Shown: positions 24,001-62,822 of the stretch, one piece after another
Layout: every line of letters begins with the position of its first letter
How positions within the stretch are numbered: position 1 is the stretch's first letter
NCBI RefSeq assembly: GCF_045679555.1
Contig: NC_092091.1
Location: 17,135,072 to 17,199,071 of the forward strand
Direction: 5' to 3'
Source: Salvelinus alpinus
Lineage: Eukaryota > Chordata > Actinopteri > Salmoniformes > Salmonidae
DNA length: 64,000 nt
Notes under the pieces: model-generated
The model's database searches: none
What the model was told of the DNA's origin: nothing
What the model saw: the letters and a program-made list of their open reading frames with translations, nothing else
Position numbers and translations under genes: made by a program

Positions 24001-27000
24001 ATACCCCCCTACCTTGTCACAACTGATTGGCTCAAACGCATTAAGGAAAGAAATTCCACAAATTGGCATTTAACAAGGCACACCTGTTAATTGAAATGCA
24101 TTCCAGGTGACAACCCCACGAAGCTGTTTGAGAGAATGCCAAGAGTATGCAAAGCTGTCAAGGCAAAGGGTGGCTACTTTGAAGAATCTCATAAAATATA
24201 TTTTGATTTAACACTTGGTTTCTACATAATTCCATATGTGTAATTTCATAGTTTTGATGTCTACGCTGTTATTCTACAATGTAGTAAAAATAAAGAAAAA
24301 CCCTGAAATGAGTAGGTATGTTCAAACTTTTGACTGGTACTCTATATCAAAAATATAAACGCAACATGTTAAGTATTGGTTTCATGAGCTGAAATGAAAT
24401 GTTCTATACGCTCAAAGCTTATTTCTCTCAAATTTTGTGCGCACATCTTTTTACATCTCTGTTAATGAGAATATCTCCTTTGCCAAGATAATTAATCCAC
24501 ATGACAGGTATGGCATATCAAGAAGTTGATTAAACAGCGTGATCATTAAACAGTTGCACCTTGTACTGGGGACAATAATCTGTTTTGCCACAGATGTTTT
24601 GACGGAGTGTGCAATTGGCATGCTGACTGCAGGAATGTCTACTGCAGCTGTTGGCAAATTTTACGTTAATATCTCTTAGCCAGCAGTATACCACCCTGCA
24701 TCCCACTGCTGGCTTGCTTCTGAAGCTAAGTAGGGTTGGTCCTGGTCTGTCTAGATGGGAGACCAGATGCTGCTGGAAATGGTTTTGGAGGGCCAGTAGG
24801 TGGTGCTCTTTCCTCTGGTCTAAAAGAATATCCCAAAGCCCCAGGGCAGTGATTGGGGACATTGCCCTGTGTAGGGTGCTGCCTTTCGGATGGGATGTTA
24901 AATGGGTGTCCTAACTCTCTGTGGTCATTGAAGATCCCATGGCACTTATCGTAGGGGTGTTAACCCCGGTGTCCTGGCTAAATTCCCAATCTGGCCCTCA
25001 TACCATTACATTTGGCTCATTCATCGCTGTAACTATTCCCCCCCCCCCCCCCCCAACTTATCAGGTCAAATATGAAATGAATAAAAAATACCATAACCAC
25101 GCTAGCCCAGGACATCCGTATCCGGCTTCTTCACCTGCGGGATCGTCTGCGACCCGGACAGCTGATGAAACTGAGTATTTCTGTCTGTAATAAAGCCCTT
25201 TTTGTCAGGGGAAAAACTCATTATTATTGACTGTGCCTAGCTCCACAGTGGGTGGACCTGGCTCCCAAGTGGATGGGCCCATGTCCGCCCATGCCCAGTG
25301 ACGGGAAATCCATAGATCAGGGCCTAATTAATTTATTTCCTTATGAACTGCAACTCAGTGAAATTGTTGTATATTGCATTTTATATTTTTGTTCAGTAAT
25401 AATTACGTTTCCACGTGATCAGAGCATGATATTTTTCCATTTCACACCGAGGTTCAGTGGCTATCGAAAGGGAGAGCGCTGGAAAGACTATTATTCTCAA
25501 TGGATGTAAAAACACTTAGTTTGCTTGCTGTTTTGAGGTGAAGAGATTACTTTGAGAAGTTCCACGGGTCATTAGTGGTTGTGAGTTAAGGCAATCAGAA
25601 ATACTGTCAGACATCCCCAAATGGGCACATTTATACATTTGTCCACAGGCCGTGTAGCCTAGGCCTACTGTTCCTTACTCAACATTGACAGGAGTGCTCC
25701 AAACAATACAATAACTACATTGACCACTTAAATTATACTGAAACTTGTTTCTCACAAGTGTAGTGTAGGTTGTGAGCTCTGCACACAACTTGTCCACTCC
25801 GACAATGAGAGTGGTAAAGGACGATAATGTATTAAATTGATTAACATAATTTCTAATCTGTTTACACTAATTTATGGGAATTAACTGTAAATGTACTACT
25901 GGTGATATAGGTAACAGTGAATGATACAATTCACACAATGAAGTTATGAAACAATTTAATGCGCATGAGTTGGCGAGAGTGCGTTCTGGAGAGAGACGCG
26001 CCTTGTGCAAGCCACGCTTCCCTTCTTGACTCAACATTTAAAAATTATACCTAAGACACGTTATCTTCACACATACTGTAGGCCTAAGGAATATTCTCTC
26101 AAACGGTGTCTGGTTCAAGGCAGTAGCCATTTATGGAAAACAATGCAATTTCACTTTTTGTCCTTTTTTATCAACTTGCTTGGCATGCCAAGGCTAATTC
26201 CCTCGCGGCACGCGTGCCTTACGTTGCTGATGCCTGTCTAGAGTGATGTGCCATCCCCGCAGCCTCCGCAATGGATTAGTCTACTGATTCAGGTGCGAAT
26301 CAGACGCTATACAAGTGATTGCCACGTGTTGGCCTTTATTTCCCTGATTTGTTAATGTCATTAGGCAAGTTTTATTCTTTTAACAAACTAATTTAACTGT
26401 GCCCCCCCAATAGGAAATTGACGCAATCACTACACAGCCGGGCTCAGAGGAGCCCACAGGGGATCTGTCGGCCCCAGCCCCCACCCCACCACGTCCAGAA
26501 CCCAAAGCCCAGCAACATGCCTCTGAGATGGGGACAGAGCCGGAGAGTACTGGGGCGGACTTCCAGTATGATACCCATACTTCACTCGCTGGAGGTGACC
26601 GGTTTTATTGTATTTCATACATTTGTGCAGAACTTACCTGAAGTTCAGTTGGCCAGTTGGACACATTGTTTATGACAAGTGTGCGGTTCTGCTGATCTAG
26701 AGTTCCTTCCTTATTTGTTTCCTGTCCACCAGTGGGAGGATTGGAGATGGGGGACTGGCAGGAGGTGTGGGATGACAACACAGGTTGTTACTACTACTGG
26801 AACACTCAGACCAACGAAGTGGCCTGGCAGCTGCCTTATTACCTGGCCCACCAGGTGCAGGCCCTGCAGCAGTACACAGACAGGTGAGATGTTAATTACT
26901 ACCTGGTAGAGGTCGACCGATTTTTATGATTTTTCAACGCCGATACCGATTTTATTGGACGACCAAAAAAGCCGATACCAATTATTCGGCCTATTATTTT

Positions 27001-30000
27001 TTTGTAATAAATGACGTTTACAACAATACTGAATGAACAAGGAACACTTAATATAATACATAAGTAACATCTATTTAGTCTCAAATAAATAATGAAATGT
27101 GTTCAATTTGGTTTAAATAATGCAAAAACACAGTGTTGGAGAAGTAAAAGTGCAATATGTGCCATGTAAAAAAGCTAACATTTAAGTTCCTTGCTCAGAA
27201 TATGAGAACATATGACAGCTGGTGGTTCCTTTTAACATGAGTCTGCAATATTCCCAGTTAAGTTTTAGGTTGTATTTATTATAGGACTATTTCTCTACCA
27301 TTTGTATTTCATATGCCTTTGACTATTGGATGTTCTTATAGGCACTTTAGTATTGCCAGCCAAATCTCGGGAGTTGATAGGCTTGAAGTCATTAACAGCG
27401 CTGTGCATCTCAGCATTGCTAAGAGCTGCTGTTTGAATGAATGCTTACGAGCTTGCTGCTGCCTACCACCGCTCAGTCAGACTGCCCTATCAAATCATAT
27501 ACTTAATTATAATATAATAAACGCACAGAAATATGATCAAATCATTAATATGGTCAAATCCGGAAACTATAATTTTCTTTCAGTGAAATACGGAATAGTT
27601 CCGTATTTTATTGAACGGGTGGCAACCCTAAGTCTAAATATTACTGTTACATTGCACAACCTTCAATGTTGTAAAGTAATTATGTAAAATTCAGGCAAAT
27701 TAATTACGGTCTTTTGTTAGGAATAAATGGCCTTTCAACAGTTCACAACGATCCAGGCGGCCCAAACTGCTGCATATACCCTGACTCTGCTTGCACTGAA
27801 CGCAAGAGAAGTGACACAATTTACCTAGTTAATATTGTCTGCTATCATGAATTTCTTAACTTCATATGCAGTTTTTTTTTTAAATATACTTGTGTATTGA
27901 TTTTAAGAAAGGCTTTGATGTTTATGGTTAGGTACTTTATTGAAACTATTGTGCTTTTTTTCACAAATGTGCTTTTGTTAAATCGTCAAGTTGAAGTAGG
28001 ATGTGATTCGATGATAAATGAACAGGCACCGCATTGATTACATGCAAGCTAGTTAACCTAGTAATATCATCAACCATGTGTAGTTGACTAGTGATTATGT
28101 TTAGATAGGTTTAATGCTAGTTAGCAACTTACCTTGGCTCCTTGCAGCCACAAGGTCCTTTTGATGCTGCACTCGCGTAACAGGTGGTCAGCCTGCCACG
28201 CAGTCTCCTCGTGGATTGCAATGTAATCGGTCATAATTGGCATCCAACAAGGCAGATTTACCGATTTGTTATGAAACTTGAAATCGGCCCTAATTAATCG
28301 GCCATGCCGATTTATTTTTAATTGGTCGACCTCTACTACTTAGCCCACCAGGTGCAGGGCCTGCAGCAGTACGCAGACAGGTGAGGTGATAGTGGATGGT
28401 ACAACATAATATAGAAATGTTAGTCATACAAGTGGATTTGTATGCTACAGCATGACTCTGAAATGTGTTTTTGTTCTTAGAAAACAAGTTAAATCTAAAA
28501 CTGTTTCATCCCCTGTAGCTCAACAGTCAATGGCAATGGAGCTACACAGAGTGCAGGTTGCTATGCTGAACAACACTCCACTGTTAGTGCCCTAACATCC
28601 AAGACAAAAGTGGTGAGTTATTTGACTGCTTTTGTGCTCAGTGATTCAGTGTGAATCCCCAAAAAGTACTTGACTGCCCATTTGTTGGCAAAAGTGTGTC
28701 CGTGTATGTCTAACTTTGACTGTCTCTTTGACAGGAGGTGATGGAGAGTGTGGTGGCCCTTACCAGTGAGGAAGAGGAGCGTCATGGTGTGGCCGCCTCC
28801 CTCCTCGGCCCCCTCATCCCTGCAGAGGTGAAAGAAGCGGAGGAGAAGTGGAGGAAAAGGCTGGTGGGAGGGCTGGAGGAGAGGGAGAACAGCTTGGAGG
28901 ATAGCCTCCCAGGGTCCCCCGCTCCTCCACTGAATGAGCCAGACACCCCCACACACCCCCTGAGGGACCAACGCAGCAGGAACCAGTCTGAGGAGGACTC
29001 TGATGCAGAGGAGACAGAAGAGGACACCATGGAGCTGGAGCTGGCTCTGGACAGGAAAAAGGTCAGCTTATGTTTTATTCATCCTTTATTTAACCAGGGA
29101 TGTTGCATGTACATCTCTTTCAAGGGAGTTTATATATTGTAACTCTTTTGAAAAGGTCACAAATGTTGACAATTTAACACGTGCAGAACTAGTGTGTACG
29201 GTTGGGAGTTATCCTTTACAACGAATCCAACATGAGTATCTTTCCTCTTTTTGTCCCTCTGCCCCCTAGGCTGAGCTGCGGGCGTTGGAAGAGGGCGATT
29301 GCAGTGTGGGGGGCTCCAGCCCCTGTTCTGAGGCCAGTCAGGAGGCCGCCGCCGGGCCTCATAGCCTGCTTCCGAAAAAGGCCATGTGGAAGACGGCCTT
29401 CCTGAGAGCAGCCAGCCCCGATTCAAACAGCAGGGACTCAGATACACGGGAAGATCCAGACACAGGTGAGTGTCTGGAGAACTGTTAGGATGCGATCCAG
29501 TCCAGATACACAAACTCTGGGCAGATTACATTATTATATTGTTCTGATGTGGTTCATCCTGGGATGTAAACTCTTCTCTAGGACCAGGGCTAGACATCCA
29601 CTTTTTTACCCACTAGTCTTTTGAACAAGTAGGACTTAAGCTCAAGTCACTTGGTCTGTAACACCATAGTCCAAAAAGGTATTTGAAAATTGTTGTATGT
29701 TGCAAGGAACCACTTCACAAAATAACATTATTACTGGTATTGACAATGGAAGGCTGCTGGTCTGATCTCATGTATTACATCTCCTGCCTTTGTGGCCTTG
29801 AGCAAGGCACTTAACCCCCCCCCCAACAAAGTAAAATACTGCACTGATGGGCTACTGTATAAAACACATGTGGTCCGTCAACCCTCCATCTGGAGAGCTA
29901 CTGGGTGTGCAGGCTTTTCATCCAACCCTGCTCAAACACCAGCGGCGGCTTATCTAGGTCCTGTTGAGCAGCTGATTTTATTTCTACTCTTTTTACAATG

Positions 30001-33000
30001 TGGTATGTTCAAGCAAGACTGGCCCAAAAGCCTGACACATTACAATTACATCCAACTACTTACAGTTTGTCTTCATAAAATAATTCCCTCATTCAGTGAA
30101 CCTGGAATAAAATGGCTAAGATGGGTGAGGTAGCTAATTCAGTGTTCAGAGGAGTTCTTGACAGCATAGGAGTTAATTTCTCAGAATTACATATGCCAAT
30201 ATTGAGACTGTTTTACAACTGGAGTATGCAGCATTGGTTTTATTGCTGAACCAAAATGGATTAAAACTGGGCAAATAACTCACTAGCAATTATCAACAAA
30301 TGTGCAAACGCGACTCGCTTTGATCTCAAAAGAAAGACTGCTCATGCCTGTCAATGCAGGCCTACAATTATTATAGTCCAACACGCTCTGCAGAGATTGG
30401 TAGGGCAGAGAGCAGAACATCGCATCCGGAGGACACTTTGGTCTAAATCTGATCCAATGTTGATCGGAGTAGCCTAATTGTTTTTGATATCATTACTTTT
30501 TTATATGATCTTTTTTACTTGTCCATTCAGACAACGGATCTGTAATCTGCTTGTTTGTAAAAAATAAAAATAAAGTGTTATAAATTTAAAAAAATACTTG
30601 CCCCTTGCAAGCGGACAGCGTTAATGTTGAGCCCTGAGGACTTAAGATCTGATATGCTGCCCAGACCAACTCTGTCATACACATGTAGGGTTAGCCTTAA
30701 TACTAGTCCTCTTATGCATGTTTTGCAGCACATTCCAAAGTCCCAGAGAAGGACGGGGAAGAGGAGGACAAGGAAACTGGGGACAAAATGGTTACTAATG
30801 TGCCACCAAAGGAGGAAGTCGAAACTCCAGAGCTCAAGGTACTGAAGCTTTATCAACTCTCGCACCAATTTAACTCTTTGTAGTAGGGCCTCGGCATGAG
30901 AACCGTGTGCCTAGTCATGAGTGATTTTAAAAATAACTGGTGGCTAACTAATTAATAAAATGTTTTGAATGTTCAGTTTCAGATCGGTGAACTTGCCAAC
31001 ACCTTAACCAGCAAGATGGAGTTTTTGGGGATCAACAAGAAAACTATCTCCAACTTCCAGCTTCTTCTGTTACAGACTGAGGTAGGAGGACCATAGTCTG
31101 TCATAGTTTACCTACAATGACAGCCTATATCTTCAGGTCCAGATTATATTCTCTTGGCCTTTAAACTGCATTAGTTGGCTAGCTGCATGACTCAATGATG
31201 GGAACTTTTACAGACCTGTACTGAATGACTGATTGCAAGTTATTGTTCTGATGGGAGGTGTTTTTTATTTTTTTTATTAATTTGATCACCATCCTCATTT
31301 TAGAAAACAAGGTGCATCTCTAACAGTCATTCCCCCCCCCCCCCCCCCTCTTTTCCCTTCCTTTCTGTCAGACGCGGATCGCTGACTGGCGGGAGGGGGC
31401 TCTGAACGGGATCTATCTCCGCCGCAGGCTGCAGGAAGCCGCCGAGCACATAAAACATTACGAACTTAACGCCGCCCCTAAAGGCTGGTCGTGCCACTGG
31501 GACAGGTACGCGCTCCTTACCTTTTAACATCTTTAATCACCCCCCCCCCCCAACCCCTGTGACAACGACCCCCTCAGAGCTGGGGTCGCCACCTTTTTAA
31601 CCTGATATGGGGGAGATCCTAACCAATCTGTGGATTACATGAAATGGAGACACTGTGATGCAATGCTGGCACTCTGCACTGCCAGTTAAGGGAGCAGCCT
31701 GATCCCCCAACACTACCACCAGAGACGGGACAACCTGTCCTGTCCAACCATAGCCCAGACTCTGGCTCTTGTATTTTGGGGGGGAGCTCTGTAGACTGCT
31801 TTGGGGGTCCACTTAGTGGAACAGGGGTACGGTAGCTAGGAAGGTGGTTGTGCGCGAGAGCTTTGCACTTTACAGGACTACAGCCCCAGAATGCATTGCT
31901 GGGCGACAGTGACCCCCCCCGGAAACGAGGAGTGTCACAAACCGTTTCAGTTAAAGCGAAGACGGAGCGTTGACGAGGACCCAGCAGGTCAGACCAACTC
32001 TATTTCATATGTTTCCTGTTTTTATTCCTTGATTGACTGAAAATTGATAGATATTTCTGATGTAAAAAAAAAAAAAAACATGTATAAAGTGTTTAGTTTC
32101 TTTGCATTTGTTTGTTGAGTTGATGATGAAGATGCCTATATCTCTGGCATATATGTTTGGGGGGCAAAAGGTTGTTTGTGTATGTTGTCATGACAAACAT
32201 TATGTGAACATCTGAACCCTGCTTTGATCGACTTTACAGGACCCAAGCTGTTTGTTTTGGTTTGTTAATTTGGTTTTGAGAGCGTTAAGGTGGGTTCCCC
32301 ATCAATCCAATCCGGCCCTTCTCCTGGATGGCTAACCTGGCTGTCCAGCCCAACATTCCCCCTCTGTGGCAGTCCCATCTCCCTACACCCCCCCCCCCCC
32401 CTGCCCAAAGTATACAGAGACTCAGCCAGTTATGAGGCCAGCTGTTGAGACTGTCTTGTATCTCTGTTCTCCCTCCTTCTAGAGAGCAGAGGAGGTATTT
32501 CTATACCAATGACTGCACCAGTGCCTCCCAGTGGGACTTCCCAGCAGAGGAAGATGTGGAAGAAGTAGAAAATACCAAGACATCCATAGATGGGGACCCC
32601 AAACCCCCGCCCGTACCCACTGGTGGGCTTGCAGTCGCAGGTCAGTCCCTAAGACCCTTCACTGTCCTCTTACAGGCCCATAACAGCCACCGTATCTACA
32701 GGTCCAGATGAATCTCTTAGCCTTGAACCACACTAGTTGGCTAGTTGCATGACTCTCAATGAACTTTCACGGACCTGTACTGAATGACTGTGATTGCAAA
32801 ACAAATCTGAAGGGAGATGGACAGCTTAGCACATTTGGCTTTCAGCAGCTAACTAGCAAGTCTTGAGCTATGGAACCTGCCACGGTCATATGTTACTAAC
32901 TAGTCAATATTTGGTTAACCTTACTCCTCCCCTCTGACAAAGAAAGGGTACACAACTAACCCCAGCTTTTATACATTTTCTATCATATTGCAGGAACTTC

Positions 33001-36000
33001 AGACTTCACACCCATCGTCCCCCCTCAGCCTGGCCTTCCCTCCTATTGGTCTGTGCCTCAGCCCCCACTTCCCCCTGACCAGCCCCCTCCCCCTGCCGAC
33101 TCTCCCCCGCCTCCCCCTCCACCCCCAGAGTCACCTCCCCCTCTCCCCCCTCCTCCTCTGGAGGATGATGGAGAGATAGAGGAGGTAGAGATGGAGGATG
33201 ATGATAGTGAGCCTCCAGCACCTGGAACAGAGCCGCCACTCCCCCCAGGGGTTGTTGGCATGAAGGTATGTGACCATTCTACTAATCCAGACCTCAAATG
33301 TCATCTAGTAGTCTTGTGAATAGACTAAGAACACTTTTTAGATGACAGCTTAGTCCAGCAGTTGCCAAGTGCCAGTCAGTGGGCCTGCTGTTTTTTGTTA
33401 ACTTAACTCTAAATGATAACTTTCACAGACCAGTACTGAATGAATGTGATTGCAACCCCCAAAACATCTGATCGGAGATGTGCATAACAAGCATTTCGTT
33501 GTACATTAGCATAAGATGGGCTTTTACTGTAAGCTTATCTTTTTCAGTATTTTCTCTCCTCAGGTTGTGGAGTCTACAGCCTCGCTGGGTAAGAGTCAGA
33601 AACGCAAGGCTTCAGGATCAGGTCAGCTGACCAAGGCTGTAACCATTGGCAGCAGCGCCATCCTCTACACACAGACCATCGCCACAGCAGGTAAAAAGCA
33701 ATGATGTCGTCAGCCTGCTGGTTTTCATGTTAACATTACTCTTGAAGTAGCAGGACTCTCAATGATGAGAACTTTCACAGACCTCTACTGAATTACTGTG
33801 ATTAAGTATTTTTCTGGTGGGAGATGTAAGACACTAGTGTCTCACAGTATAGGTGTTTGGTGTTTAGAGATCACATGGTTTGCAATTAAACTGTAGGGCT
33901 TGTATCAAATAGTTGACTTTTGTGTTCTGTCCTGTGATGTCAGGAGCTGCCTACTGGGGTGTGTCTGCGGTAGCTACACCTCCACTGCCTTCTGAAACCG
34001 TGGCCCCACCTCTCCCACCTCCCCCTACCCGCCCCCCGCTACCCCCCACTCAGGCCCCCTCTGCCCTGGACCCCACAGGGTTTAAAACACTGCTAACAGA
34101 CAAGACCAAGAAACTAAAGAAGGATAAGGTGGGTGTCTTTGATTTTCATATCCAATTAGTGATATGACAAAAAATGCTTGACGTTTTAAACATTAAATTT
34201 TTTTTTTTTTATCATGATGCGAATTCACAATCCAGATATGGTTCTGCGTCTAACCGCTAGGTGACAATGCAGTTCAATCTACCGCAGTCCTGGCTACCTA
34301 CCTACCGGTCGTCACGAGTAACCACAGCCACAGTCATAAAGCCCACCTACTTCTACAATTTCCTGTTTTCATAAATTCTTACAATCTAGGCAATTTTGAC
34401 TTTATGGCTGTGGTAACTTGTGGAAACCCTACCTTATGGCGCTCACCTTACTGCTGTTTTCCACCCACTCAGCAACAATGGTATTAATGCCATTTTAGAT
34501 TCTCAAGTGCCTCTCTTCCATTTTCTTTTAGTACGTACTTCATGTCCCACTTCTCATCAATGTGATGGCTCATTTCAATAACATGACAGCATGTTAATGG
34601 ATGGCCAACAATCTGTCAGCGCCACGTATGGTCTTTGAGAGCTTGCAGAGAACAGTCAAGCTCTCAAAGACCATACGTGGCGTTGTATTTTTATGATGCT
34701 CAGGACCTATTAATTGTGGTTGTGATAACTTCACTGCGACGTTGTACAAAGAAGGGGGTGGTTTCAGTTAGGATTTTTATTTTAGACGTTATTGATCCCA
34801 AATTAGTTTAAATGTCACACCCCTATATACAATAAAGCCCAGCCGTGAGCTGCCCAGTAACGTGAGCCTACCAGAAGAGCTAAATGCCTTTTTATGCTCG
34901 CATCGAGGCAAGCAACACTGAAGCATGCATGAGAGCACCAGCTGTTTCGGACGACTGTGTGATCATGCTCTCCGTAGCCGATGTGAGCAAGACCTCCTTT
35001 TTAAGCAGGTCAGCATTCACAAGGCTGCAGGGCCAGATGGATTACCAGGACATGTTCTCGGAGCATGCGCAGACCAAATGGCAAGTGTCTTCACTTACAT
35101 TGTCAACCTCTCGCTGTCTGAGTCTGTAATACCTACATGTTTCAAGCAGACCACCATAGTCCCTGTGCCCAATAAAGTGACAGTAACCTGCCTAAATGAC
35201 TACTGCCCCGTAGCACTCATGTCGGTAGCCATGAAGTGCTTTGAAAGGCTGGTCATGGCTCACATCAACACCATCATCCCGGAAACCCTAGACCCACTCC
35301 AATTCGCATACCGCCGCAACAGATCCACAGATGATGCAATCTCAATCGCACTCCAGACTGCCATTTCCCACTTGGACAAAAGGAACACCTATATGAGAAT
35401 GCTATTCATTGACTACAGCTCAGCATTCAACACCATAGTGCCCACAAAGCTCATCACTAAGCGAAGGACAATACCACTCCCTCTGCAACTGGGTCCTGGA
35501 CTTCCTGATGGGCCACCCCCAGGTGGTTAGAGTAGGCAACAACACATCTGCCACGCTGATCCTCAACACAGGGGCCCCTCAGGGGTGCGTGTACAGTCCC
35601 CTCCTGTACTCCCTGTCCACCCACATGCGTGGCCAAGCAGGAACTCCAACACCATCATTACGTTTGCTGACGACACCGGTGGTAGGCCTGATCACCGAGT
35701 ATGATGAGACAGCCTATGGAGGATGTCAGAGACCTGGCAGTGTGGTGCCAGGACCACAACCTCTCCTTCAACATGAGCAAGACAAAGGAGATGATCGTGG
35801 ACTACAGGAAAAGGGGGGCCGAACACACCCCCATTCTCATCGATGGGGCTGTAGTGGCGCAGGTTGAGAGCTTCAAGTTCCCTGGTGTCCACCAACAAAC
35901 TATCATGATCCAAACACACCAAGAAAGTTGTGACGAGGGCACAACAATGCCTTTTCCCCCTCAGGAGACTGAAAAGATTTGGCATGGGTCCCCAGATCCT

Positions 36001-37404
36001 CAAAGTTCTACAGCTGCACCATCGAGAGCATCCTGAACGGTTACATTACCGCTTGGTTTGGCAACTGCTCAGCATCCGATCGTAGGGCGCTACAGAGGGT
36101 AGTGTGTACGGCCCAGTACATTACTGGGGCCAAGCTTCTTGCCATCCAGGACCTATATACTAGGGCAGGTCAGAGGAAGGCCCAAAAAGTTGTCAGACTT
36201 CTCTCTTTGCTATTGCATGGAAAGCGTTACCGGAGCGCCAAGTCTAGGTCCAAAAGGCTCCTTAACAGCTTCTTAACCCCCCCCTTTTGTTTTTACACTG
36301 CTGCTACTCGCTGTTTATTGTCACTTTAACCCCTACCTACATGTACAAATTACCTCGACTAACATGTACCCCACACATTGACTTGGTACCGGTACCCCCT
36401 GTCTTTTTATTTTTTACTTAAGAAAATATTTACTAAATAAACTTAACTGCATTGTTGGTTAAGGGCTTGTAAGTAAGAATTTCACTAAGGTCTACACCTG
36501 ATGTATTTGGCGCATGTGACTAACAATTGATCTGTTCTATGCATTGAGGAGAAAGGATTGTAAAAGATCAGCAGTCTAATTTGATGTATATAAAAAAATA
36601 TATATATATATATATTTTGAAGCATCTCCTAGTAGAATCAAATCACTGATGGCATTAAATGACAATCCCTCACTCTCTCCGTTATTCCCCTGGTTGCTGT
36701 GTCTAGTCGAAGAAGAGCAAGACGAAGATGCCGTCCCTGGTAAAGAAGTGGCAGAGCATCCAGAAAGAGCTGGACGAGGAGGAGCAGGCTAGTTCTAGCG
36801 ACGAGGACAGGGACCAGCTCAACAAGAGGAGTATTGAGGAGTGGAAACAGCAGCAGTTACTCACGTAAGAGCCCCCCCCCCCCCAATATTTTTTTTTATA
36901 CGTTGTACATTTCTTGGGCCTTATTAAGAATCGCACAGTAGGCTTGCTGATCTGGGATCAGGTCACTGTCCATGTATCTTATTCATAACGATCTAAAAGG
37001 CTGATCCTACATCAGCACTCCTACTCTGAGACACTTGATGCATACAGCCTCTGATTTAAAAATGTTTTTCTTTTTTTATGTAGAAGTCTGTTTGATCTAG
37101 TCCAGCAGTGGTTACTGTTCCTTAGTGTACCTGCAGTTTTTGTTGACATGCCTCTCAACGATGAGGACTTTCACAAACCTGAGCTGAATTACTGTGATTG
37201 CACACTATTTTTGTGTTGGGAGACATGCATTAGGTTTTTATATTTTAACTTGTAATGCACACGTTTTTGGTGAAAGGCAGTAAGAAATAGATTTATCTGT
37301 TGGATTGCAGGGGTAAAGCTGGAAAGAACGCAAACTTTGAGGCTTTACCTGATGATTGGCGAGAGAGGATGTTGAAGAAGAGGAAGATGATGAAGAGCAC
37401 GTAA
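18077..37404 (+). CDS. fnbp4: Formin-binding protein 4, 17 exons, 868 residues
   Basis: Nuclear WW-domain protein that binds proline-rich formin segments. Exons: 18077-18191, 18749-18829, 20424-20542, 26414-26594, 26733-26883, 28519-28612, 28735-29061, 29270-29465, 30729-30838, 30977-31081, 31372-31505, 32483-32640, 32994-33265, 33564-33690, 33944-34128, 36707-36864, 37311-37404. Every junction is GT-AG, phases match, and the total is 2607 nt. The start [56 protein letters not shown] and the C-terminus [11 protein letters not shown] match mammalian FNBP4 as recalled. WW1 is about residues 172-200, WW2 about 529-558 (split between exons 11 and 12), proline runs about 605-640 and 735-765, lysine-rich ends of exons 15-16. 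It is shorter than human (about 1017), mainly before exon 16. Five introns carry snoRNA-like units. Confidence 0.96.
18838..20202. mobile_element. Tc1-like transposon at the start of fnbp4 intron 2
   Basis: TA target copies sit at 18836-18837 and 20203-20204. The left end cagtgcctaaagaaagtatt is matched by an inverted right end (minus strand gagtgccttcagaaagaatt). The inside is too decayed to give a transposase frame; a few words of the family remain. It starts directly after the GTAAGA donor of exon 2. Confidence 0.85.
21788..22285 (-). mobile_element. tRNA-derived SINE with an internal inverted duplication
   Basis: Read on the minus strand from 22285 it has a tRNA-like head: ggtggcgcagtggtctaggg (A-box region) and gggttcgcgccc (B-box like). 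The body is GC-rich (ggggcgacgcacaattggcc). The tail passes through gtctcatcgcgcactagcga and cttcgtctctcccgagcccg to about 21788. This is a common salmonid SINE type as recalled. The middle is abnormal: 22009-22107 is an inverted copy of 22108-22206. The long ORFs on both strands here are SINE sequence, not genes. Confidence 0.85.
22009..22206. repeat. 198-bp palindrome (99-bp arms, no spacer)
   Basis: Centre lies between 22107 and 22108 in TAGGGATATCCCTA. The outer 72 bases of each arm (22009-22080 and 22135-22206) are exact inverted copies. The next 20 bases inward contain five mismatches, and the central 14 bases are perfectly palindromic. Confidence 0.97.
22944..24342 (-). mobile_element. 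Tc1-like transposon in fnbp4 intron 3, antisense to the gene
   Basis: Ends cagtaacagtcaaaagttta and (minus strand) gagtaccagtcaaaagttt, flanked by TA. Three minus-strand transposase pieces in separate frames remain: HTH part with [20 protein letters not shown] (about 23709-23996), [13 protein letters not shown] with the first Asp (23534-23728), and [11 protein letters not shown]...[19 protein letters not shown] (23141-23326). Frameshifts and an internal deletion make it inactive. Confidence 0.92.
24346..25396 (+). mobile_element. Tc1-like element in fnbp4 intron 3, interrupted by a 5S-derived SINE
   Basis: The left part contains aaaaatataaacgcaacatg and the right end tatatttttgttcagtaat, the two termini of a family ending in TATAAACGCAAC. 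Family sequence resumes at about 25092 (ccaggacatccgtatccggc) after the inserted SINE. A second, truncated copy of the left half lies at 38744-39180. No transposase frame survives. Confidence 0.82.
24672..25085 (+). mobile_element. 5S rRNA-derived SINE (SINE3 type)
   Basis: The head resembles 5S rRNA: gaagctaagtagggttgg (5S A-box region, about 24722) and agatgggagacc (5S C-box region, about 24753-24764), spaced as in 5S genes. The body follows with ggcagtgattggggacattg and gatcccatggcacttatcg. The tail is degenerate with a poly-C run near 25040. It is inserted in a Tc1-like element. It is not a functional 5S gene because the sequence beyond the promoter-like part is unrelated. Confidence 0.8.
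25397..26413. other. Rest of fnbp4 intron 3, no feature seen
   Basis: No recognisable repeat ends or coding stretch up to the exon 4 acceptor. Confidence 0.5.
26756..26836 (+). other. First WW domain of Fnbp4 (exon 5)
   Basis: Residues 174-200 hold the two signature Trp (174 in DWQEVW and 197 in VAWQLP), the aromatic CYYYWN strand and the final Pro200. All fold-defining residues of the family are present. The domain is complete within one exon, upstream of the duplicated exon end. Confidence 0.93.
26839..28380 (+). repeat. 60-bp tandem duplication of the exon 5 end, split by a hAT element
   Basis: Unit 1 begins ttacctggcccaccagg at 26839 and includes the last codons of exon 5 and the GTGAGA donor. 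Unit 2 begins ctacctgg at 26899, is cut after 26906, and resumes at 28336 with ctacttag, cccaccaggtgcagggcctg and cagcagtacgcagacag before a second GTGAGG. Reading through the first donor gives AGG TGA, a stop, so unit 2 cannot extend the protein in frame. Confidence 0.9.
26907..28335. mobile_element. Non-autonomous hAT-type transposon in fnbp4 intron 5
   Basis: Terminal inverted repeats tagaggtcgaccgatt and (minus strand) tagaggtcgaccaatt match at 15 of 16 bases. The sub-terminal sequence is rich in CCGATA words (gccgataccgattttattgg). The flanking 8-bp copies ctacctgg and ctacttag fit an 8-bp target duplication with two later substitutions. The interior has no transposase. I recall this as an abundant salmonid family. 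Confidence 0.87.
29466..30728. other. fnbp4 intron 8, little recognisable content
   Basis: A short SINE-like piece near 29795-29830 (ccttgagcaaggcacttaac) precedes a poly-C run. No other repeat ends or RNA motifs seen. Confidence 0.4.
31188..31258 (+). ncRNA. Box C/D snoRNA-like unit A, fnbp4 intron 10
   Basis: C-box-like ATGATGG at 31195-31201, D' box CTGA at 31221-31224, D box CTGA at 31248-31251. Guide ttacagacctgt ends just before the D' box and would pair with 18S acaggtctgtga with one G-U pair. D box to the exon 11 acceptor is about 120 nt. Both D and D' are intact; the C box differs from RTGATGA at its last base. About 60 nt upstream (ctcttggcct, ttagttggctagctgcatga) also match unit B. 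Confidence 0.6.
32751..32818 (+). ncRNA. Box C/D snoRNA-like unit B, fnbp4 intron 12, C box damaged
   Basis: Guide tcacggacctgt, D' box CTGA at 32780-32783 and D box CTGA at 32807-32810 are kept. The C box region reads ctcaatgaac: compared with unit D, about five bases including the middle of ATGATGA are missing. The guide has one change (A to G). Probably a decaying copy. Confidence 0.45.
33405..33478 (+). ncRNA. Box C/D snoRNA-like unit C, fnbp4 intron 13
   Basis: C-box-like ATGATAA at 33413-33419, D' box CTGA at 33436-33439, D box CTGA at 33468-33471. Guide tcacagaccagt has one mismatch to the 18S segment near its D' end. Flanking actct and cggaga could form a short terminal stem. About 93 nt from D box to the exon 14 acceptor, a usual distance for intronic C/D snoRNAs. 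Confidence 0.55.
33754..33825 (+). ncRNA. Box C/D snoRNA-like unit D, fnbp4 intron 14, best C box
   Basis: Perfect C box ATGATGA at 33762-33768 and D' box CTGA at 33788-33791. The D box position reads CTGG (33814-33817), one base from consensus. Guide tcacagacctct has one mismatch to 18S. Terminal stem: ctctc before the C box pairs with gggag after the D box. D box to the exon 15 acceptor is about 126 nt. Confidence 0.62.
34617..34685. repeat. Hairpin, 29-nt arms with an 11-nt loop, in fnbp4 intron 15
   Basis: Left arm 34617-34645 (cagcgccacgtatggtcttt then gagagcttg), loop cagagaacagt, right arm 34657-34685. Only one mismatch, three bases from the open end. No similarity to the repeats around it is obvious. 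Confidence 0.95.
34850..36530 (+). mobile_element. L2-type LINE copy 1 in fnbp4 intron 15, 5'-truncated
   Basis: Reverse-transcriptase blocks in order: [16 protein letters not shown] [80 protein letters not shown], then FADD (35662-35673) in another frame. Frameshifts occur near 35460 and 35620. The C-terminal region ([33 protein letters not shown]) and a 3' tail ending tggcgcatgtgactaacaat follow. Confidence 0.88.
37150..37224 (+). ncRNA. Box C/D snoRNA-like unit E, fnbp4 intron 16, D box lost
   Basis: C-box-like ACGATGA at 37158-37164 and D' box CTGA at 37184-37187; the D position reads TGTGTT. Guide tcacaaacctga has three changes against the 18S match, so pairing is poor. The terminal stem cctctc/gggaga is retained. 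Its upstream flank (agtccagcagt) matches the flank of unit C. Most diverged copy, probably a pseudogene. Confidence 0.4.
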
Positions 37405-61662: not shown

Positions 61663-62822
61663 TTAGTCAAAATCACCTGTCAATGATTTTAGTGGTCAGG
61701 ATAATGATGATTTAAATGGTTTCACTGTCCAGATCTGTCTACACTTGTAAGATATCCAGACACAATGCGTGTCTGACTACCTCCGGAGGTGGGCAAGAAT
61801 ATCTGTTCACAATCAAATCACAATGCGTCTTTTAATCGTCTACACCTGTCTAAAGATTTGGGCACAATTAGAATGTGGACAAGATCAGGACAAAGGACGC
61901 ATGTTAACCAGATAATAACAGGGCTAGGGTCAACAGTGAGACAGTGAAGGATGAAGGGATACCAGGGCTGAGGATGAGACTGCACTTGTAAGGAAGTTTG
62001 CGCAGAAATATCCCCTTCCTTGAACTGTCCCTGATTGCACTCACTCTAACCCTAAAAATGGATGGACGGATATACTATCAATACCTATGGGGCTACTGCT
62101 GCATAGTGCACCATAGGAGAAGGTCTGGTGAGCACACCATAGTTAGTCTACCAAATAGAAGACCAGCTGACTGAGAGATGTTGAAAGGGAAATGGAAGAT
62201 CAATACAGGTCCTGGGAGGTGTGAAAACAAGCTGTTGTTCATCCTTATTCAGCCTGAGGGTGAAAACATGATAAGAGGATGTGGTCTCTCTCTGACAGAC
62301 ACATGATCCATCACAAACATGATTTGTTGTTATGTACCCTAGCCAGCCTGAGGATGATCAAGCCATAAAATGAAATAGAACAATAATGTAATAATGACAA
62401 TAATAATTGATTTAATGATTTAATAATGAAATGTATCTCTGTGAGTCAAACTAAAGGTAGACTCTCTAATAGACTCCTGAGAACAAATGGAGAAGAGTCA
62501 GTTTAGATAGTTCAGTTCAGAATTTACATATCTATAGAACTCTGAGCATCTGCCATTCTGACACATCCATAGCAAACATATTTGATATATCTCCTCTCTG
62601 AGGGGAGTCTGATTTGTTTGCTAGCTGTAGTCCATCCCTGATATATCGACTGTTCTATCCCTGATATATCGACTGAATTAAGTGTATGTTAAGGCGCCCA
62701 GCTTACATCTGACCTATCTGGTATGTGGTCAATGATGTCACATTCTTTCCCTGATGGCAAACAGAGCAGTACTGAAGAGCTATCTCATAGCTCACTGTCT
62801 CTCTGACTAGAAACGTGGGTCT
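61663..62822. other. Intergenic, no feature seen
   Basis: Only a short duplication at 61660-61691 (tgtcaatgattttagt twice) and another at 62633-62672 (tccctgatatatcgactg twice). Confidence 0.45.

Follow-up and report, generated by a model that had tools for sequence, protein, structure and literature searches.

The introns of the fnbp4 gene of Salvelinus alpinus contain five short units that resemble box C/D snoRNAs aimed at 18S rRNA, and the question raised by this locus is whether fnbp4 is a working host of such a guide, as the first-pass annotation proposed, or carries copies of the guide in decay. We analyzed the window, that is, the whole stretch of 64,000 nucleotides in which the gene lies, together with related loci of the same genome. 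The units are probably paralogous copies of SNORD25 (U25; snR56) that spread intragenically before the locus was duplicated and that are now drifting. Judged from the sequences, the earlier reading of fnbp4 as a working host of the guide appears weakly supported and doubtful.

The gene was traced on the forward strand as 14 coding exons between positions 26414 and 37405, its 5' part being untraced. Joined at GT/AG splice sites, the exons give an open frame of 763 amino acids whose product contains WW domains and shares 97% identity with the formin-binding protein 4 of both Salmo salar and Oncorhynchus kisutch. Introns 10, 12, 13, 14 and 16 each harbour one C/D snoRNA-like unit of ~70 nt (hereafter i10, i12, i13, i14 and i16), as had been described from the first inspection, and all five lie on the coding strand. 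Unit i10 (31190-31258) consists of a C box ATGATGG (31195-31201), the guide TACAGACCTGTA, a D' box (31221-31224) and a D box CTGA (31248-31251). Unit i12 (32752-32817) has a damaged C box, ATGAACT, a guide with one G:U, a D' box at 32780-32783 and a D box CTGA at 32807-32810. In i13 (33406-33478) the C box reads ATGATAA, guide position 4 is mismatched, and the D' and D (CTGA) boxes are located at 33436-33439 and 33468-33471. The C box of i14 (33755-33824) is perfect, ATGATGA (33762-33768), its guide is mismatched at position 3, and its D box is CTGG (33814-33817). Finally, i16 (37151-37223) displays a C box ACGATGA (37158-37164), mismatches at guide positions 2 and 8, and GTGT (37213-37216) in place of a lost D box. 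The spacing between snoRNA and splice acceptor, initially put at 60-120 nt, covers a wider range, with 92-183 nt from D box to acceptor.

A covariance model built from the five units recovers them at 78-90 bits; elsewhere in the 64 kb its highest score is 12.0 bits. When the same model was run over 25-38 kb with the filters switched off, the highest score outside the units was 9.6 bits, and introns 11 and 15 are therefore without an additional unit in this search. In the literature searched for FNBP4 with snoRNAs, there is no sign of a report of FNBP4 as a host gene. Copies of vertebrate C/D snoRNAs in differing hosts and the sparse annotation in fish are discussed in part of PMC3349704; SNORD25 or U25 is without mention in its main text, and an earlier report of fish SNORD25 in fnbp4 is possible.

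Other features were seen inside the gene. Two copies of the end of the WW-domain exon are present (26837-26894 and 28334-28391, 88% over 58 nt), and the ~1.4 kb between them has ends that look by eye like inverted AGAGGTCGACC-like termini. This 1.4-kb segment may be a mobile element by which exon sequence was carried or trapped. Intron 15 (34129-36706) contains an open reading frame (34925-35530) resembling a reverse transcriptase by eye and, around 34625-34690, an inverted repeat with sub-threshold Rfam miRNA matches.

The box C/D architecture, the guide at D', the 18S target sequence with its pairing and the +5 rule are right as they were first described. The reference was a complete eukaryotic 18S of 1796 nt (L024) from a contig that is binned as bacterial; an 18S motif matched 25 contigs, three of the four scanned with Rfam contained eukaryotic 18S, and a search for 18S in viral contigs gave none. 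The guides of i10 and i12, which are of the SNORD25/snR56 type ACAGACCUGU, pair with 18S over positions 2-13 with one G:U each; i13 and i14 have a single mismatch and i16 has two. Guide nucleotide five faces the first G of AACAGG, at position 1431 of the 1796-nt 18S. In the 18S of one fish, a primer that carries the motif of the AACAGG site begins at position 1487 (PMC12483254). The D guide of i10 is without a good 18S partner (16.5).

The identity of this site follows from the guide. The Rfam models snR56, snoU25, SNORD25 and Dictyostelium DdR1 all align on the guide of the fnbp4 units, all under their gathering thresholds, and the guide and D' box of i10 are identical to the snR56 model across ACAGACCUGUACUGA. 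According to passages of PMC8307265, snR56 is listed for yeast 18S Gm1428, and its site is equated in part of PMC8817022 with human Gm1490/U25 and Arabidopsis Gm1431/snoR19. The same equivalence appears in a portion of PMC3511168, where the yeast site is printed as Gm1427, and that of snR56 and U25 is further supported by passages of PMC2780460. Since the guide matches both snR56 and U25/SNORD25, the site corresponds to human 18S Gm1490 (yeast Gm1428). The first-pass annotation had named it human Gm1447, which is the wrong name for the register of G1431 in the 1796-nt 18S; in passages of PMC5597630 and PMC11084827, Gm1447 is assigned to SNORD127. An identity with SNORD127/Gm1447 was dropped once snR56 had been established as U25/Gm1490, the pairing register being different. 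When such a site is named by rRNA numbering, an error of 43 nt can arise.

At the G1431 register the five fnbp4 units are the top five of the 624 CTGA sites in the window. Pairing anywhere in 18S is not significant: five of the 624 sites pair better elsewhere in 18S than i10 and i12 do, and only the fixed-register test is therefore informative. The 16-mer CACAGACCTGTACTGA occurs four times in the window with up to one mismatch, each time inside an fnbp4 unit. In i16 it has three mismatches, a match equalled by one unrelated place in the window, at 62760.

A perfect C box (RUGAUGA) and a perfect D box (CUGA) occur together in none of the five units, and their combination with a fully paired guide is likewise found in 0/5. 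One change in C is present in i10 and in i13, one in D in i14, three in C in i12, and one in C plus two in D in i16. The D' box CTGA is invariant (5/5), the D box reads CTGA in three units, as had been claimed (i10, i12 and i13), and the tgtgatt word first noted as C'-like recurs as a C' box GTGATT in four of the five. The terminal stem that was part of the same description exists as six pairs, with 89.7% of 29 cells paired in the best of seven slides, but this pairing is equalled by 103 of 500 shuffles. Covariation was sought in the terminal stem of the five units and none was found; in i10 the stem is reduced to 4 pairs. Folding energies of the units are not better than those of shuffles (z -1.29 to 0.34). 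Variation across the five copies in the window is lower in guide, D' and C' taken jointly than in the spacers (p=0.04), although in the guide by itself (0.23) it exceeds that in the preceding spacer (0.11). The constancy of the core columns, with D' identical in all units and C' nearly so, suggests that they may be, or may once have been, under some constraint.

A snoRNA covariance search with the Rfam models gave zero matches at gathering in the window. The best scores amount to 27.7 of 54 bits for snR56 (i10) and 21.2 of 39 bits for SNORD25 (i14). Unit i10 also matches SNORD28 (24.9 bits) and snoU25 (17.5), and i14 matches SNORD38 (23.7), SNORD100 (20.2), snoU25 (19.2) and three weaker models, all of them under gathering. 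The sole match of i16 is snoU54 at 15.3 bits, and i12 and i13 have none at E<=1. Matches to unrelated families that are driven by the boxes score similarly or higher, as SNORD38 does relative to SNORD25 in i14; SNORD28 in i10 and SNORD100 are further examples.

A second FNBP4-like protein of Salvelinus alpinus, 89% identical, is encoded on contig C9. In its locus a unit is present in each of introns 10, 12, 13 and 14, and near the start of intron 16 lies a remnant of 33 nt that retains D', C' and D. The array is therefore older than the split of the two fnbp4 loci, which presumably goes back to the salmonid whole-genome duplication. On C9, guide pairing across 12 positions persists in i12 (with one G:U) and in i14, both of which have a damaged C or D box as read by eye; the C9 copy of i10 is split by a 157-nt insertion (L064, reverse-strand positions 2053-2209). 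The units had been expected to be better conserved than the neighbouring intron, and between these two loci of one genome this is not so for i12 to i14: 23 of 195 aligned sites differ in the units against 68 of 604 in the remaining intron (p=0.90), in a count that leaves out i10 (split on C9) and i16 (misaligned in the global alignment) and that was made on an alignment equally gap-friendly for units and flanks. For i10, 55 of 62 sites are identical between the loci against 168 of 205 in its intron, the C9 copy being split; because this duplicate is interrupted, the neutrality of i10 lies outside the comparison.

These data bear on how much of the array could still function. It is possible, if not the reading that we favour, that i10 alone, perhaps with i12, might be a working SNORD25 gene and the remaining units pseudogenes. 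CTGA is present at both D and D' of i10, a single change affects its C box, its guide spans 12 positions with one G:U, and its Rfam score is the highest among the units (27.7 bits, snR56); on the other side stand the stem cut to 4 pairs, the deviating C box, and the interruption of the C9 duplicate, so that i10 is dispensable there. At most i10 would thus be plausible as a working copy, the sole one in fnbp4.

An active multi-copy host, in which at least two of the five units would be processed and guide 18S methylation at Gm1490, appears unlikely. Each unit is defective in C, D or the guide, i12 to i14 diverge at the intron rate, and on C9 i10 is split and i16 cut to 33 nt. The stem, although paired in 89.7% of cells, lacks covariation and is matched by 103/500 shuffles; folding (z -1.29 to 0.34) and the count of zero at Rfam gathering point the same way. 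These defects weigh against what the proposal can draw on, namely the correct strand, one unit per intron, the invariant D', the 12-position guide with one G:U retained in i10 and i12, and the partial conservation of the core columns. Some intronic snoRNAs are described in PMC10324135 and PMC11028025 as affecting their own hosts, and by the same token the units could influence, in cis, the splicing or transcript level of fnbp4 and not rRNA; the divergence of the units at the intron rate speaks against such a role, which we consider very improbable. We conclude that the fnbp4 array appears mostly relaxed from selection.

The guide word was also followed through the genome. The guide consensus quoted in the first-pass annotation, TCACAGACCTGT, has no occurrence in the window on either strand; across the genome this 12-mer has 18,653 hits and its reversed control 598. 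Eight of these loci were viewed (L026-L033), and they represent one common transposon-like repeat with neither TGATGA nor CTGA within 100 nt around the word. By itself the 12-mer is not diagnostic of a unit, and a guide word taken alone can mislead. The 16-mer of guide and D' is found with up to one mismatch at 96 genome places, against 64 for the reversed control; the window, L064 and 75 loci that were fetched together cover all 96. When scored with the five-unit model, 15 of them are units and the other 81 reach at most 19.5 bits. The 15 are distributed as four in fnbp4 on contig C6, three in fnbp4 on C9, two in stk40 and six on contig C31, within a search of places at most one mismatch from the 16-mer, which units with at least two changes would escape, as i16 would. 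That the units are pieces of a dispersed repeat containing the guide word by chance, an idea favoured by the 18,653 occurrences of TCACAGACCTGT, is extremely improbable given the lack of TGATGA and CTGA near the word at the eight viewed loci and the confinement of the 15 units, among 96 places, to the fnbp4, stk40 and C31 loci.

The units outside fnbp4 are found by the five-unit model at 55-74 bits. One of them resides in an intron of stk40 on contigs C4 and C35, the exon before this intron matching human STK40 (PDB 5l2q_C, E 4.7e-21). Its C, D' and D boxes are all perfect, and its guide is paired across positions 2-13. Between C4 and C35 the unit proper differs at 1 of 71 sites against 38 of 472 downstream (p=0.025); a count over 73 sites gives 3 differences, two of which lie at the edge of an insertion on C4. 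The divergence of the stk40 unit is lower than that of the fnbp4 units (p=0.004). The insertion, of ~0.3 kb, lies directly 5' of the snoRNA in the C4 intron (L065, G000:C4:51007000-51015000) and is missing from C35. TTTCAAT is present at either end of it, and the terminal stem is therefore retained.

Contig C31 contains six units within ~90 kb, on both strands. All six share the guide ACACAGACCTGTT and have ATGATGA as their C box; the D box is CTGA in five and TTGA in one. At the two loci examined further (L119, G000:C31:29281600-29291500, and L120) the 12-nt guide is fully paired (positions 1-12), the stem has 8 pairs, and a U27-like unit, with a guide word that matches U27, is accompanied by another C/D-like unit. 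The U27-like unit of L119 pairs with 18S position 28 in the numbering of L024. In human, the host of SNORD25 is SNHG1/UHG, which carries its snoRNAs in the order U25-U26-U27. The C31 locus thus appears SNHG1-like, L119 being one copy of it, and the six copies may represent a genuine amplification or an assembly artefact. We infer from these comparisons which SNORD25 copies are active in the genome: methylation at Gm1490 is more likely guided by the C31 SNHG1-like and stk40 copies than by those in fnbp4.

The sequences around the units indicate how the array was formed. A block of ~73 nt of upstream intron plus i10 (31117-31260, forward strand) matches 32680-32819 of intron 12 at 76% by blastn. 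In intron-to-intron comparisons, i10 and i12 align over 148 columns at 76% and i13 and i16 over 139 at 69%, and the matches extend into common flank, pointing to duplication of intron segments within fnbp4 rather than retroposition. Recombination in cis inside one host gene is described in part of PMC8178906 as the main route by which C/D families grow. A tree of 11 rows gave no resolution among the fnbp4 copies. An unrooted tree of 16 rows places the eight fnbp4 rows on one side and the stk40 and C31 rows on the other, with support of 96/97. Within fnbp4 only i14 pairs across the two loci (92/86), and the tree gives no order for the copies inside the gene.

Our preferred reading, SNORD25 copies in decay, would then proceed as follows. 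Copies of SNORD25 would have multiplied in the fnbp4 introns by within-gene duplication of intron segments, the fnbp4 locus would subsequently have been duplicated, and its copies would now drift. A functional unit would be freed by splicing and debranching and would then associate with the C/D proteins. Its guide 5' of D' would direct 2'-O-methylation of the G that faces guide nucleotide five, human 18S Gm1490; for the fnbp4 units this mechanism is anticipated by analogy with the family. The locus would provide an example, within a single genome, of a guide RNA that multiplies in one host, is carried along when the locus is duplicated and then decays, with intact copies persisting elsewhere. 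A more far-reaching scenario, to which we give little credence, is that SNORD25 of salmonids colonised two protein-coding hosts, stk40 and fnbp4, in addition to an SNHG1-like locus that is amplified, that the fnbp4 array has been caught in the middle of its loss, and that copies with an altered guide may be expressed and free for other targets.

Among known systems, the fnbp4 units resemble SNORD25/U25 (Rfam RF00054, clan CL00049) in the D' guide, the predicted 18S site Gm1490 and the box layout, and differ from it in scoring below the Rfam threshold, in their damaged boxes and in their host, fnbp4. With yeast snR56 (RF01188), which targets yeast Gm1428, i10 shares an identical guide and D' over ACAGACCUGUACUGA, but the match is under gathering and leaves 21 of the 84 model positions unfilled. 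SNORD127 (18S Gm1447) is likewise a C/D guide to 18S; the target G of the fnbp4 units lies 43 nt downstream of its site in human numbering. The C31 SNHG1-like units have the same guide and layout and match the eight fnbp4 units at 52-60 sites over 68-75 aligned, and they are distinguished by ATGATGA in 6/6, a D box CTGA in 5/6 and an 8-pair stem in the two copies examined. The stk40 unit of C4 and C35 is a close relative as well, with 55-67 sites matching the eight fnbp4 units over 67-77 aligned. By contrast with the damaged boxes of the fnbp4 units, those of the stk40 unit are all intact.
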